Shown piece by piece: positions 4,811-11,275 of a stretch of 53,106 nt of DNA. The notes below the pieces were generated by a model, which was not told where the DNA came from, ran no database searches, and saw nothing but the letters and a program-made list of their open reading frames with translations. The number at the start of each line of letters is the position of its first letter. The first letter of the stretch is position 1. Made by a program: the position numbers and the translations under genes. The stretch is from contig SBGE01000192.1 of NCBI GenBank assembly GCA_006226755.1, positions 1-53,106 on the forward strand. Direction: 5' to 3'. The stretch comes from Deltaproteobacteria bacterium (GTDB lineage Bacteria > Bdellovibrionota > Bacteriovoracia > Bacteriovoracales > Bacteriovoracaceae).

Positions 4811-5143
4811 TTAGCGTTTCTTAGGAAGATACAGCTCAATCTCATCGAGAAGATACTTCATTCGCATAGAGGTCTCTTCTAGAAGGTTCATCTGATCTCT
4901 CAGAAGCTCATTTTGATGCTGGTTTTTCTTGAGTATATCCTCGACCATCAAGGCCTCGGCCTGCATAGCATTTTCGTAGATATCATCATCGTCTTCAAAG
5001 TCTTCATCTTGGAAATGGGAAAATTCTAAAAGCAGTTCCTCTAGTGGATCTTCAATACTCAATTCTTCGACGGGAAAGTTCTTGCTGGCAGGAAACATCA
5101 CTAGCAGGTTGTCGTCAGTCAATTTTTGTTTTTCTTTATTCAC
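4811..5143 (-). CDS. Hypothetical acidic coiled-coil protein
   Basis: 110 aa ORF with helical, heptad-like C-terminus; no family recognised. Confidence 0.6.
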   Translation of the reverse strand: MNKEKQKLTDDNLLVMFPASKNFPVEELSIEDPLEELLLEFSHFQDEDFEDDDDIYENAMQAEALMVEDILKKNQHQNELLRDQMNLLEETSMRMKYLLDEIELYLPKKR

Positions 5144-5356: not shown

Positions 5357-5581
5357 ATGAGCGAAAAAGTGAATTGCCTCAAATGTAAGTACTATCACAA
5401 TACCTGGGACCCCAAGGCCCCACGTGGGTGCTCGCTGTTTCGCTTCAAAGGCCCACAATTCCCTTCTCTGGCAGTTAAAAGAGAGACTGGAGATGAATGT
5501 AAGGGATTCGTGCCAAACGGCAGAGAGGCAAAAAAACAGGCCAAGGACAAGCTAGATTTGAACCGAGACGACCTCTGGTAA
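5357..5581 (+). CDS. Small cysteine-containing conserved protein, putative metal-binding
   Basis: MSEKVNCLKCKYYHNTWDPKAPRGCSLFRFKGPQFPSLAVKRETGDECKGF; CxxC...C...C spacing. Confidence 0.75.
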   Translation: MSEKVNCLKCKYYHNTWDPKAPRGCSLFRFKGPQFPSLAVKRETGDECKGFVPNGREAKKQAKDKLDLNRDDLW

Positions 5582-6721
5582 ATCAAGACCTCTTTCATAA
5601 TAAGTAGCTCCACCTCTTTCAATCATCCCCCCACCCAGACAAATACTGTCTTTATAAAAGACAACAGATTGTCTCAAAGTGACGGCCCTTTGAGGTTCGT
5701 CAAATACGACATGGGCGATACCATTTTCGATGGATTGAATAGTGCAGTCCTGGTCTTTTTGACGGTAGCGAATTTTGGCCTTGCATCTAAAGGGGGTTTT
5801 AAAAGGGACTACTTCTTCCACCCAAGATAGCTCATTGGCCCAAAGTTCATCTCTATATAGAGCTGGATGTTTCTCACCTCGCTCAACATAAACAGTATTG
5901 GTTTCCACATCTTTATCAACTACAAACCACGGCTCTCCTGGTCCACCCAGACCTAAACCTTTCCGTTGGCCGATGGTATAAAAAGAAACACCAGAATGTT
6001 CACCAACAACCTCGCCATTCAAAAGCTTAAATGGTCCATTTTCAAATGTGATGTAATTTGAGAGGAAGTTTTTGAAATTTCTCTCCCCGATAAAGCAGAT
6101 TCCGGTGGAGTCTTTTTTATTTTTGGTAGAGAGGTCATATTTTTCGGCCAGTCGTCTGACTTCCGCCTTAGGAAGATGTCCAATTGGAAAGAGCACTTTC
6201 TTTAAAATTTCACTTTTGTTGGTATAGAGAAAATAGGTTTGATCTTTACCGGGATCATTTCCTTTGACCAATTGATGGACACCATTCAAAAGCATATTCT
6301 GACAATAGTGACCTGTGGCCAGGTAATCTGCTCCAAGCTCCAATGCCTTATCCATGAAAACTTTGAATTTAATCTCTCTATTGCACAGAATATCTGGATT
6401 TGGAGTGTGTCCGGCCTTATATTCTTCAACAAAATGTTTGAAGACGTTTTCACGATATTCCTCAACAAACTCTACTGAATAATAAGGAATATCGAGTTTC
6501 TCACAAACCTTGACCACATCTTCATATTCTTTGGAGGCCTGACAAACGCCATTTTCATCTGTTTCTTCCCAGTTCTTCATGAACATGCCGATGACGTTGT
6601 AACCTTGTTCTTTGAGAACTGCTGCAGTGACAGAGGAATCCACCCCACCAGACATGCCGACGATGACAGTGGCCCCGACTTCTGGGGCAAAGGGAATAAG
6701 TGAATCCGACCATTTACTCAT
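5552..6721 (-). CDS. mnmA: tRNA-specific 2-thiouridylase MnmA
   Basis: VIVGMSGGVDSSVTAAVL PP-loop, NPDILCNREIKF and STGICFIGERNF catalytic cysteine motifs. Confidence 0.96.
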   Translation of the reverse strand: MSKWSDSLIPFAPEVGATVIVGMSGGVDSSVTAAVLKEQGYNVIGMFMKNWEETDENGVCQASKEYEDVVKVCEKLDIPYYSVEFVEEYRENVFKHFVEEYKAGHTPNPDILCNREIKFKVFMDKALELGADYLATGHYCQNMLLNGVHQLVKGNDPGKDQTYFLYTNKSEILKKVLFPIGHLPKAEVRRLAEKYDLSTKNKKDSTGICFIGERNFKNFLSNYITFENGPFKLLNGEVVGEHSGVSFYTIGQRKGLGLGGPGEPWFVVDKDVETNTVYVERGEKHPALYRDELWANELSWVEEVVPFKTPFRCKAKIRYRQKDQDCTIQSIENGIAHVVFDEPQRAVTLRQSVVFYKDSICLGGGMIERGGATYYERGLDLPEVVSVQI

Positions 6722-6767: not shown

Positions 6768-7913
6768 TTATCTTATCAGGTCGTAATTCCAGCCCAAGAC
6801 ACCGCTCGTAAGCGATCTAAATGCGTAATAAAAGCTCTTCTGATTAACGGTTTCAGCAAAATCATTGGAAGTGTGATGTTTTTCCGAATTATAGTCATTT
6901 TCAAGGTCTTGAGTAAAGGCCACAGCTGTAAGACCTTTTCTCCAAAAATTAGAGTGATCAGAATTGTCATAACTATTGGCCATAATCTCCCATCTCATGG
7001 CCGAACCACCTTGCTTGCCACCTTGGATAATGGTCTCAGCGATTTTTTTATCTTTGGCATGTCCAATGTCATTCGTTTTTCGAATATAGGCCTTGTAATT
7101 TCGAAGCTTCTTTGTCTTATCAAACAACTTAGTATCGTTTCCAAGCATCTCAACATTGAGGTAGGCCGCCATATTTTTCTTGAGATCGGCCTGGTTTTTT
7201 TCGACATAGGCCCGGCTTCCGAGGAAGGCCAATTCTTGAAAATCAAAGAAGATGATTCTAACGGTTTTGGCCAAATTCAACTCACTGAGAATTTCAATCA
7301 TCGACAGAAGCGTTGCCACTCCAGTTCCATTATCATCGGCACCAGGCATGTCGGCACGCGGATCAACTTGGAAGGTTTTAGAGTTGTAAACAATCGTATC
7401 GTAATGAGCTCCTAGGACAATCACTTCATCAGGAGTAAGAAGCCCTTTCTTTTCCCAAATAATATTTTTACCTTTAAGACCTTTGAAACTTTTCAAAGTC
7501 GTGAGTACAGAATCAGTGAAGCCTTTCCATTTTTTATATTCAGGAGAATTTGCCTGATAGCGTGAAGCGATTTTGGTTTGAAAATCGTTATTGTAGAACT
7601 CAATGGCATAATCAATATCAGGATCAAACTCTTCAACAGTCAGGACCGACTCTCCAGAAGTGTCCATTTGTTTGATTTTTGAAACTATCCAATCAGCACT
7701 TTTCTTGTGTCCATCAGTTCCTGGAAGTCTTGAAGGACGACAACAAGAAACAAAATCACGCAGGTTTTTCATCACCTTCTTCTGATTGTATCTGGAGACA
7801 ATATTTGAAATAGTACTCATCGACTTTGGAGTCTTTTCATATTTTTTGACTACAAAGGCATTGGCACATGGATTGAACAATATAAAACTAAAAATGAAAA
7901 TCAGGAAGCGCAT
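6768..7913 (-). CDS. Secreted M28-family zinc peptidase
   Basis: VIVLGAHYDTI, MPGADDNGTGVATLLSMIEI, FFDFQELAFLGSRAYVE, NSDHSNFWRKG. Start at MRFLIFIFSFILFNPCANA (signal peptide) is more plausible than the 8033 ORF start. Confidence 0.88.
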   Translation of the reverse strand: MRFLIFIFSFILFNPCANAFVVKKYEKTPKSMSTISNIVSRYNQKKVMKNLRDFVSCCRPSRLPGTDGHKKSADWIVSKIKQMDTSGESVLTVEEFDPDIDYAIEFYNNDFQTKIASRYQANSPEYKKWKGFTDSVLTTLKSFKGLKGKNIIWEKKGLLTPDEVIVLGAHYDTIVYNSKTFQVDPRADMPGADDNGTGVATLLSMIEILSELNLAKTVRIIFFDFQELAFLGSRAYVEKNQADLKKNMAAYLNVEMLGNDTKLFDKTKKLRNYKAYIRKTNDIGHAKDKKIAETIIQGGKQGGSAMRWEIMANSYDNSDHSNFWRKGLTAVAFTQDLENDYNSEKHHTSNDFAETVNQKSFYYAFRSLTSGVLGWNYDLIR

Positions 7914-9219
7914 TAGCTTTCTTTTCCTTTTCTCTTTTCTTGGCTTCTTCCTCATCCATTGGAACAATCTCAGGTGGAACATAAGTTTTGATTTTATTAT
8001 TCTCAAGAACTCCAGCAATCGATATAAATCCACTCATGATAAGCTTCCCCCCAATTGATTGCTTACTGTAGAGAGCAACGACCAGTCCTTTTGACAACAT
8101 TCCTGGCTGGGCTTTTTTGAAGCGCAATATAGCTGATCTGCTATTTTTAATAAAGACCGTACAGGCCAACAATTCTTTTGAGCTACCAATCTTGGCAAAC
8201 AACTCTATCGGTTTGGTTATATCCATTTCATTATCATATCGAATTCTCTGAAGCTGACAGTGTGTGAAGGCCAGCTCTGCTGAGTGAGCGAGATAAACTG
8301 TTCCACTTGAAGGAGCAATGTCGATGATATGAAAATCCGGATCAATATTTTTTTCACTGGCAAGTTTCAATTTGTTTTGACCGAGATAAAAATTATGGAT
8401 GCCTTTATGATCTGCTAAGATTGTATCTTCAGCTGCAATTGATAGATGTCCAGGCTTGAACAAACTTTCAGAGGCACAATACTCAACTAACAATGGTACA
8501 CGAGGGTCTGAGCCGTAACACATCTTGGTTCCTTCAGAAGAAGGCTGTGTTTTTATATCAATCAGCTTCAAAAGTTTTTCAACTTCTTCCACTCTCATTT
8601 CAGCAAGAGGGAGCATCAGCTTTTGAAGTATGTCTTGATTGACTCGAGAAAGTAGATAACTCTGATCATTTTCTGGATCGTTCCCCTTGGCAATATTAAA
8701 AAAACCAGTCGTTTGATTCTTGATCACTTTTGAATAGTGACCAGTAGCTATGAAATCTGCACCAAGAGATTCTGCTTTCTCCATCAAAACAGAAAGCTTT
8801 ACCTGATTACAGTTTATACAAGATTGAAAAGAACTCCCACCCAGACGACAACTGATCACATTATCCATTACTTCTGATTTAAAAATCTCTTGTGCCTTCA
8901 CTCCGTAAAAGGGAATGTCCAAGTGATCACAAACATCTTTTACTTTTTCAATATCAGAAATATGACAACGACTATAGAGAGGCTCTTTTGGCATTTTTCT
9001 TTCAGCATAGGAATCATTCAAGTTAAATTCTTCGGCCTCAATCGCTTTTTTTTCAGCTGCTTTTTGTGCTTTTATTGGAAGAAGTTCATCATTGAGAAGT
9101 AAGGCAAGGCCAATACAATCGTAGCCTTGTTTTTTTAATAAATAAGCAGCTACCGTGGAGTCTCTTCTCCCGGTCATACCAATAACAACTTTGATATTTT
9201 TCTTTTTACTCGATTCCAT
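7888..9219 (-). CDS. MnmA-like paralog with altered PP-loop
   Basis: MESSKKKNIKVVIGMTGRRDSTVAAYLLKKQGYDCIGLALLL...CINCNQVKLSVLMEKAESLGADFIATGHYSKV...GNDPENDQSYLLSRV...EGTKMCYGSDPR; MnmA architecture but TGRRDS in place of SGGVDS. Confidence 0.82.
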   Translation of the reverse strand: MESSKKKNIKVVIGMTGRRDSTVAAYLLKKQGYDCIGLALLLNDELLPIKAQKAAEKKAIEAEEFNLNDSYAERKMPKEPLYSRCHISDIEKVKDVCDHLDIPFYGVKAQEIFKSEVMDNVISCRLGGSSFQSCINCNQVKLSVLMEKAESLGADFIATGHYSKVIKNQTTGFFNIAKGNDPENDQSYLLSRVNQDILQKLMLPLAEMRVEEVEKLLKLIDIKTQPSSEGTKMCYGSDPRVPLLVEYCASESLFKPGHLSIAAEDTILADHKGIHNFYLGQNKLKLASEKNIDPDFHIIDIAPSSGTVYLAHSAELAFTHCQLQRIRYDNEMDITKPIELFAKIGSSKELLACTVFIKNSRSAILRFKKAQPGMLSKGLVVALYSKQSIGGKLIMSGFISIAGVLENNKIKTYVPPEIVPMDEEEAKKREKEKKANALPDFHF

Positions 9220-9352
9220 AATCTCAAGTTCTATTATACATGGTTTAACTGCCCGAAAAAACAAGGGCAAATAGGTATTCCATCTCTGACACAGAAGCTC
9301 GGTTATAGGATAAATCTTTTAAATTAAAGAGGAGTCTACCGATAAGGTAACA

Positions 9353-10045
9353 ATGGATAAAAAGAATCAGATTAACAGATCCGACATCCTGCTGTTTAAA
9401 AATGAAGAAAACAGATATGGACACAGCCAGCTAAAAAACTTTCTAAGTTTTTTGAGCTCTAATGGCGTGAAAAGGCCTTACAAGTTTGCTTATATTGAAA
9501 GCGAAGGCCCACTGATTTCAAATATGTCGCTAAGGGAAAACATTCATCTGGACAGTGTTCCCCTTTCCCTATCAACAACCAAGGAAATGGAGCTCAAAAA
9601 TCTCCTTAGCAAAATTGGTAATAATGATCTTTTGGAACTCTTCGCTAAGATAGATAATCTTGAAATCAAAGTTTCTGAAGTTTGTGACCAAACCAGAAAA
9701 ATGGCGGCCTTAATCAAGGGTCTGATTCAAGAAGCAGATTTTCTGTTTCTCGAAGCTCCTGAAAAGCATTTAACAGAAGAAAACCTGAGATTATTCGTTA
9801 ATGCGCTCAATTATCAGGTTCAAGAAAATGGTCAAATGGTTTTTATCTCTTCACCGGCCACATTGTTTTGGCAGGGGAAGGTTTCTAAAATTATCACCCG
9901 TGGACCTAAAAAAGAATTTCTCATCACTCCAGTCATCAAGCATATGGGCAATAACGTCATCGCCACAGATAAAGCTCCAGTACGGGCCGAAAACGTTTTT
10001 GGACTCGATAGGACAGTCAAAAACGAAGATAAAAAAGCCTCATAA
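9353..10045 (+). CDS. Degenerate ABC-ATPase-like protein (predicted pseudo-ATPase)
   Basis: EENRYGHSQLKNFL at the Walker A position, YIESEGPLISNMSLRENI resembling the Q-loop, VSEVCDQTRKMAALIKGLIQEADFLFLEAPEKHLTEEN at signature/Walker B, MVFISSP at the H-loop. Confidence 0.6.
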   Translation: MDKKNQINRSDILLFKNEENRYGHSQLKNFLSFLSSNGVKRPYKFAYIESEGPLISNMSLRENIHLDSVPLSLSTTKEMELKNLLSKIGNNDLLELFAKIDNLEIKVSEVCDQTRKMAALIKGLIQEADFLFLEAPEKHLTEENLRLFVNALNYQVQENGQMVFISSPATLFWQGKVSKIITRGPKKEFLITPVIKHMGNNVIATDKAPVRAENVFGLDRTVKNEDKKAS

Positions 10046-10132: not shown

Positions 10133-11275
10133 ATGCCTAAATTGAATTTTATTGATGTTTTTGCAGGTGCGGGTGGTCTCTCTTGTGGGATGGAAATGGC
10201 AGGGATGCGATGCCTCCTCGGAGTTGATCACGACAAGCATGCAATGGCGACTTTTGCCAAAAATCACAAACACGCCGATGTTTACTGCGGCGATATCACC
10301 AAGCTTACAAAAAAGAAATTGTTTGAATTAATTGGTGACAACAAAATTCACGCTGTTGTTGGTGGTCCCCCATGTCAGGGATTTTCGACTGTCGGAACTG
10401 GTGATCCAGGAGATCAGCGAAACTCACTCTTTTTGCAATTCGTAAGAATCGTCAAACTGACTGAGCCAGAATTCGTTGTTATGGAAAATGTCACTGGTCT
10501 ACTGGCCAAAAAGAATGAGAAGACTCTTCAAGCAATCTTCAAGAAGTTTTCTTCACTTGGTTATCATATGGGCGTTCAAGTGATGTCCGCTGAGCAATAT
10601 GGTGTTCCTGAAAAAAGACGTCGAACTATTATTATGGGAACGAAAATCAACGAAAAACCGATTTTCCCAAAGCCTAGCCACGATACCATATTGGCCAATA
10701 CTTTCGTAGAGGCCAGAACCGTTGGTGATGCTCTTAAAAATCTTAAAGCACCTAATGGTGAATTGTATAATCACGACCTGGATCTTGCGAAAGTATCAGA
10801 TCCTCTAGACGAAAAACGTCTGATGAAAATCCCTGAAGGTCAGGGTATTCGTTATGAAAAAGATGAAAAGAAGTTTCTCCCTCCGAAACTCAGACTTGGA
10901 GTCGATTGGAAAAACCTCAGAGAAAATAGGTTCAGACAAACCAAATATTTCAGACTCGATAGGAAAAAACCTAGTCCAACGATCATGACCCACAGGCATT
11001 CTTACTATCATCCAGTTGAGCCACGCTTTTTAACTCAAAGAGAAGCTGCTGCCCTTCAAAGTTTTCCAAATGATTTTGTTTTTGAAGGACCTCTCAGTGC
11101 TCAATGGAGACAAATCGGAAATGCTGTTCCTCCACTTCTTGGGAAGGCCATTGGAAAGGCCCTTATGCACATGCACAAGAAGAGAGAAGAATCACTTTTG
11201 AGTAAAAGCAAAGGCAAAGTAGAGACTGATATCCATTCTATAAGAGGCAAGGCCTTCGTTTATGGAGAAGCCTAG
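10133..11275 (+). CDS. C5-cytosine DNA methyltransferase
   Basis: FIDVFAGAGGLSCGMEMAG (motif I), VVGGPPCQGFSTVG (motif IV), VMENVTGL (VI), QYGVPEKRRRTIIMG (VIII), LTQREAAALQSFP and WRQIGNAVPPLLGKAI (IX-X). Confidence 0.95.
   Translation: MPKLNFIDVFAGAGGLSCGMEMAGMRCLLGVDHDKHAMATFAKNHKHADVYCGDITKLTKKKLFELIGDNKIHAVVGGPPCQGFSTVGTGDPGDQRNSLFLQFVRIVKLTEPEFVVMENVTGLLAKKNEKTLQAIFKKFSSLGYHMGVQVMSAEQYGVPEKRRRTIIMGTKINEKPIFPKPSHDTILANTFVEARTVGDALKNLKAPNGELYNHDLDLAKVSDPLDEKRLMKIPEGQGIRYEKDEKKFLPPKLRLGVDWKNLRENRFRQTKYFRLDRKKPSPTIMTHRHSYYHPVEPRFLTQREAAALQSFPNDFVFEGPLSAQWRQIGNAVPPLLGKAIGKALMHMHKKREESLLSKSKGKVETDIHSIRGKAFVYGEA

Follow-up and report, generated by a model that had tools for sequence, protein, structure and literature searches.

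To our knowledge, bacterial MnmA (TrmU), the tRNA 2-thiouridine(34) synthase, acts alone, without a pseudo-subunit. A C-type class of this enzyme, with a CxxC motif and a dependence on Fe-S, was described by Shigi, as cited in PMC11784392. The eukaryotic protein Ctu2/Ncs2 is degenerate, but Ctu1 needs it for thiolation (PMC10067955, PMC4014090); the CTU2 loop reads SGGXXS and Ctu2 is devoid of the cluster cysteines (PMC10067955), and CTU2 evolves faster than CTU1 (PMC4014090). A literature search for an MnmA pseudoenzyme, or for mnmA in Halobacteriovorax, found no report of either among the papers it covered. The window analysed here (the whole stretch of 53,106 nucleotides) carries a paralog with the MnmA fold (PAR) close to a canonical mnmA.

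Locus and fold of the MnmA paralog

PAR, the main gene of this study, encodes a protein of 443 aa at 7888..9219 on the minus strand, as judged by its translation, its Pfam and NCBIfam matches, its fold and its orthologs; all features of the gene given below share this strand. The coordinates of the first-pass annotation stand and its strand is corrected to minus, since the plus strand over this interval contains many stops while the minus strand is open. The start is the ATG at 9219, and the frame remains open up to a TTG at 9270. The protein carries the segments described earlier, namely MTGRRDST, CINCNQVKL, EGTKMCYGSD, a charged insertion and a charged tail, and the canonical mnmA was likewise found where it had been placed, with its SGGVDSS loop. 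The charged insertion (residues 50-80; 8980..9072) is present as reported and is not a conserved feature of the orthologs: it is lineage-specific, and part of it is of low confidence in the structural model (pLDDT ~50 around residues 61-80).

The match of PAR to PF03054 reached 135 bits, against a Pfam cut-off of 20.6, and its score with the NCBIfam MnmA model was 194.8 bits, under the equivalog cut-off of 284. An AlphaFold2 model built from 31 orthologs (pLDDT 86.8, pTM 0.84) displays a fold that is confident from family covariation; Foldseek matched it across its whole length with PDB entries 2hma and 2det (E 1e-29 to 1e-26), and its TM-scores by target length to 2hma, 2det and 2deu were 0.82-0.86, with the three-domain MnmA fold present. 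The Foldseek matches to TtuA were much weaker than those to MnmA folds, which places PAR outside the TtuA/Ncs-type PP-loop subfamily. The relationship between PAR and MnmA is far above chance, and Pfam, NCBIfam and Foldseek agree with the earlier proposal of a genuine MnmA-fold paralog having an altered catalytic loop.

The canonical mnmA (5552..6721, minus strand), which is of the D-type (DxxC, SGGVDS), is located two genes downstream of PAR. Between the two lies a gene for a secreted-type M28 peptidase (6768..7913, minus strand; assigned by PF04389 and synteny), whose likely start, the ATG at 7913, falls within the 3' end of PAR, and a small acidic protein of unassigned family (4811..5143, minus strand) is conserved downstream of mnmA. 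The divergent neighbour of PAR encodes a degenerate protein with an ABC-ATPase fold (PSABC; 9353..10045, plus strand) ending in KKAS, and is followed by a C5 DNA cytosine methyltransferase gene (DCM; 10133..11275, plus strand), which is found beside PSABC in many genomes. This gene order, acidic protein-mnmA-M28-PAR and, divergently, PSABC-DCM, is conserved through the class. A scan of the divergent intergenic region for promoters and terminators found none. Membership of PAR in a defence system was considered and rejected, as PAR had no PADLOC match; DCM matched type II methyltransferases in PADLOC, a result that fits any C5 methylase.

The fold of PSABC is that of an ABC nucleotide-binding domain (NBD; Foldseek E ~1e-8 to ABC ATPases). 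Its likeness to ABC proteins is weak at the sequence level (NCBIfam LsrA, E=4e-6, also seen in the class search), and a Pfam search of the PSABC family gave no ABC match. Neither the Walker A motif nor the signature motif was found in its members (0/82 for each), and a standard Walker B is missing as well. Wherever contigs permit checking, PSABC was not seen without PAR (two genomes have PSABC at a contig edge), and about 20 genomes have PAR without PSABC beside it. The locus also points to a linked, dead ABC protein kept throughout this class, whose members are mostly predators.

Distribution, motif content and origin

The class set comprised 129 genomes of the Bacteriovoracia, all of one family, with Bacteriovorax, Halobacteriovorax and Bacteriovoracaceae as named relatives. 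PAR is present in 112 of them: 107 genomes with 108 long proteins (one genome having two loci), one genome with an interrupted gene (G025), and four recognized by reading the loci. Four genomes that are more than 90% complete (G030, G034, G107 and G109) are without PAR, so the gene is not essential in all members. In G025 the paralog (L045:6672-8156) is broken by an in-frame stop, as in a few other loci. G085, with 6% contamination, has two copies of the locus (L225 and L226), one of them near-identical to the locus of G088, and the second copy is likely a contaminant. The mean pairwise identity of PAR orthologs is 30%, versus 60% for mnmA from the same 94 genomes, and dN/dS between close pairs is ~0.07 (G113/G119), 0.04 (G142/G143) and 0.06 (G010/G146). 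With these values decay is excluded, and the orthologs together with dN/dS also dispose of a sequencing error.

Motifs were compared between 108 PAR orthologs and 98 mnmA proteins of the class. The PP-loop reads SGGVDS in 98/98 of the latter versus 3 of ~106-108 of the former, which display more than 50 forms. The loop TGRRDS (residues 16-21; 9157..9174), previously singled out as a rewritten motif, is shared by 4 of the 108 orthologs (three genomes of the genus, and G022), and as the loop drifts it cannot be regarded as a conserved new motif. The opposite expectation, that the orthologs have SGGxDS, did not hold either: a loop of the form [ST]GG[VILM]DS occurs in 19/108, and other catalytic residues are missing there too. 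Within the loop, G17 (93%) and S21 (99%) are kept, G18 is kept in 55% (R in 21%) and D20 in 58% (E in 25%); overall, position 3 is R, S, K or N in ~40% of the orthologs and the Asp is replaced in ~40%.

Because TGRRDS is not conserved, the case for an altered enzyme rests on losses elsewhere. The Lys of the KDQ motif is present in 100% of class mnmA proteins versus 0% of PAR orthologs, and FMKNW, TPN, KDSTG, GQRKGL and RYRQ, which show little or no variation in class mnmA, are gone in all or nearly all PAR orthologs; the Gln of LRQSVVFY is lost as well. Going by general knowledge of E. coli MnmA, we take the lost residues to be contacts of tRNA and ATP, with the KDQ Lys, RYRQ and the Gln of LRQSVVFY presumably touching tRNA. 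Other parts of the pocket remain. ATGH is kept in 87-96% of the orthologs, here within ATGHYSK (residues 158-164; 8728..8748), whose Lys164, the Lys after GHxx, is found in 96%; at the KDQ[ST] site, where PAR has NDQS (residues 184-187; 8659..8670), the Asp is kept in 99% and the Gln in 83%. No new invariant set of catalytic-looking residues was found in the orthologs beyond those inherited from MnmA. Since residues handling ATP, tRNA and sulfur are gone, even where the loop is near-normal, adenylation and thiolation of U34 are not expected, and PAR is predicted to be devoid of thiolation activity. The non-adenylating paralog suggested by the first-pass annotation remains the best reading, now on the losses of the KDQ Lys, FMKNW, KDSTG, GQRKGL and RYRQ.

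The cysteines follow a different pattern. Cys85 (8965..8967), the first of a C-CxxC-C set, accompanies the other three wherever these are kept (61/61 orthologs). The other three are Cys134 and Cys137 of the CxxC motif of the C-type (8809..8820) and Cys234 (8518..8520), the counterpart of the second catalytic cysteine (E. coli Cys199). All four are present in 61 orthologs, PAR of the window included; the last three are all absent in 43 orthologs, from about three lineages, in which the gene is retained. Four cases are intermediate, and independent loss of each cysteine was rejected, a single mixed pattern having turned up among the 108 orthologs. On the paralog tree, parsimony required ~3 changes of the set, versus ~35 with shuffled labels. 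The all-or-none pattern can thus be traced to a small number of events, and the persistence of the set at 30% mean identity indicates constraint where it is kept. The cysteine described earlier as extra belongs to the CxxC that C-type MnmA normally carries, and is probably an ancestral C-type trait. CxxC occurs in 61/108 orthologs and DxxC in none. The 61 four-cysteine proteins, that of the window among them, may have a site for binding a cluster. Since the gene stays whether a lineage has kept or lost the four cysteines, the family offers a natural test of the purpose of the MnmA cysteine site apart from thiolation.

In a tree of 83 MnmA proteins the PAR orthologs form one clade (support 100), and the mnmA proteins of the class lie inside the D-type clade with those of E. 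coli, Legionella and Listeria (support 99). Joining PAR orthologs and class mnmA was rejected by the AU test (p=2e-6), which rules out a recent tandem duplication of mnmA; a single class-level duplication, suggested by an early FastTree of class sequences and a few from the phylum, was corrected by the larger tree. Two placements are compatible with the AU test, one with the C-type proteins of the phylum (p=0.18) and one as sister to all D-type proteins (p=0.22). A search of the phylum beyond the class found MnmA matches, and all 25 of those read, from other families, are C-type. This result, together with a CxxC that is never DxxC, favours descent from a superseded C-type enzyme, and PAR is likely, though with branches this long not proven, to be a displaced C-type MnmA beside a working D-type enzyme. 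The D-type mnmA of the class versus the C-type in 25/25 samples from other families is itself a possible gene displacement.

A putative non-catalytic partner and its alternatives

The C-termini provide a further conserved feature. After an acid-rich stretch, PAR orthologs end in Phe in 85/109 cases and in F, L, Y or W in 102/109; mnmA proteins end in Phe in 2/103. In PAR of the window an acidic/basic linker precedes DFHF (7891..7902), and the last four residues are unplaced in the AlphaFold2 model (pLDDT <50). PSABC mostly ends in K-K-A-A/S or a variant thereof. That PAR and PSABC both have a conserved end which the models leave unplaced suggests that these ends may be docking motifs. Partial tree-distance correlations were 0.39-0.52 for PAR-PSABC, 0.37-0.60 for PAR-MnmA and ~0 for MnmA-PSABC, and are suggestive only, the 38-61 genomes being related and few.

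We consider it reasonably probable that PAR is a class-wide MnmA pseudoenzyme, a superseded C-type copy that is kept as a non-catalytic partner. In this view the ancestor had an old MnmA, most likely of the C-type, whose place was taken by the D-type mnmA. The old copy would have shed the residues it needed to adenylate and thiolate U34; its three-domain fold would remain, as would a remnant of the base/nucleotide pocket (ATGHxxK, DQS, G17, S21) and, in many species, the site formed by the four cysteines. Selection on a gene whose catalytic site is dismantled points to a non-enzymatic partner rather than a second thiolase, and the retention of PAR to a binding role. The protein would bind others through its fold and its conserved, usually Phe-ended tail, with PSABC and MnmA itself as the most likely partners, in the manner in which Ctu2/Ncs2 serves Ctu1/Ncs6. 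By this analogy, a scaffold or regulator is the best reading. Linkage and co-variation suggest, more tentatively, who the partners are, bearing in mind that neighbouring genes may also co-vary from unrelated causes, and the direction of any effect on them is equally tentative. It is doubtful, if conceivable, that the locus encodes a heteromeric module for tRNA thiolation or translation control, in which D-type MnmA would be governed by two linked pseudo-ATPases, the displaced C-type MnmA scaffold and the dead ABC-fold protein, joined via their C-terminal tails, as a convergent counterpart of Ctu1-Ctu2.

The conserved polar pocket and the four cysteines of many species make a remodelled enzyme the main rival, unlikely as we judge it. 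Such a protein might bind a nucleotide or base in the pocket, hold an Fe-S cluster in the cysteine-bearing species and perform a different reaction, be it another sulfur transfer or one on another tRNA or a metabolite. The four cysteines are kept together in 61 orthologs of which 44 have a drifted PP-loop, related thiolases need no more than three cysteines to hold a [4Fe-4S] cluster (PMC10067955), and G17, S21, T159-G160-H161, K164, D185 and Q186 are conserved at 83-99%. Some chemistry by PAR is conceivable, given that it still has the four cysteines, ATGH and DQS. However, about three lineages dropped the cysteine set and kept the gene, the loop varies at position 3 and at its Asp, and the orthologs show no new invariant, catalytic-looking set in addition to what was inherited from MnmA.

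A tRNA reader or chaperone, binding flipped U34 or the anticodon arm without modifying it and so regulating thiolation or the fate of the tRNA, would explain the retained ATGH and KDQ Asp and Gln as well as the MnmA-like three-domain fold. We consider this role improbable, as the presumed tRNA contacts are lost, and in eukaryotes tRNA binding was reported for CTU1 only, not for CTU2 (PMC4014090). Moreover, the central domain between the HUP and last domains (model positions ~220/238 to 298) is absent in two orthologs (G123 and G135; L287:3465-4505 and L289:3395-4516).

A redundant, active second s2U34 synthase is very unlikely: a few orthologs do combine SGGVDS or TGGVDS with all cysteines, but even these are without the KDQ Lys and GQRKGL, and the canonical mnmA is intact next door at every PAR locus whose contig reaches that far. 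A decaying relic, retained only through linkage to mnmA, would account for the fast divergence, the many loop variants and the in-frame stops, but is scarcely credible and is refuted for most lineages by a dN/dS of 0.04-0.07, the presence in 112/129 genomes, the conserved C-terminal residue and the confident fold.

Comparison with known systems

With MnmA/TrmU (PF03054, NF001138; 2hma, 2det) PAR shares the full three-domain fold, ATGH and DQ[ST], and 61 of its orthologs also have the C-CxxC-C set. It differs by the loss of the PP-loop, the KDQ Lys, FMKNW, KDSTG, GQRKGL and RYRQ, by a score under the NCBIfam equivalog cut-off, and by a tail that usually ends in Phe. Like C-type MnmA it has CxxC and not DxxC; in contrast to that class, its catalytic apparatus is gone and a single Cys mostly stands in place of the CC in the first motif. 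PSABC stands in a comparable position towards ABC-type ATPases, having the NBD fold and, in all 82 members, neither Walker A nor signature motif.

By analogy, Ctu2/Ncs2 is the closest precedent. PAR resembles it in a degenerate loop that retains its last Ser, in a partial loss of the cluster cysteines, and in evolving much faster than its catalytic relative. Ctu2/Ncs2 belongs to the TtuA-like PP-loop subfamily, so the resemblance would be convergent; PAR, moreover, is not derived from the neighbouring mnmA, and its partner role is putative. A class-wide pseudo-MnmA would show a displaced tRNA-modifying enzyme turning into a non-catalytic component, in parallel to eukaryotic Ctu2.
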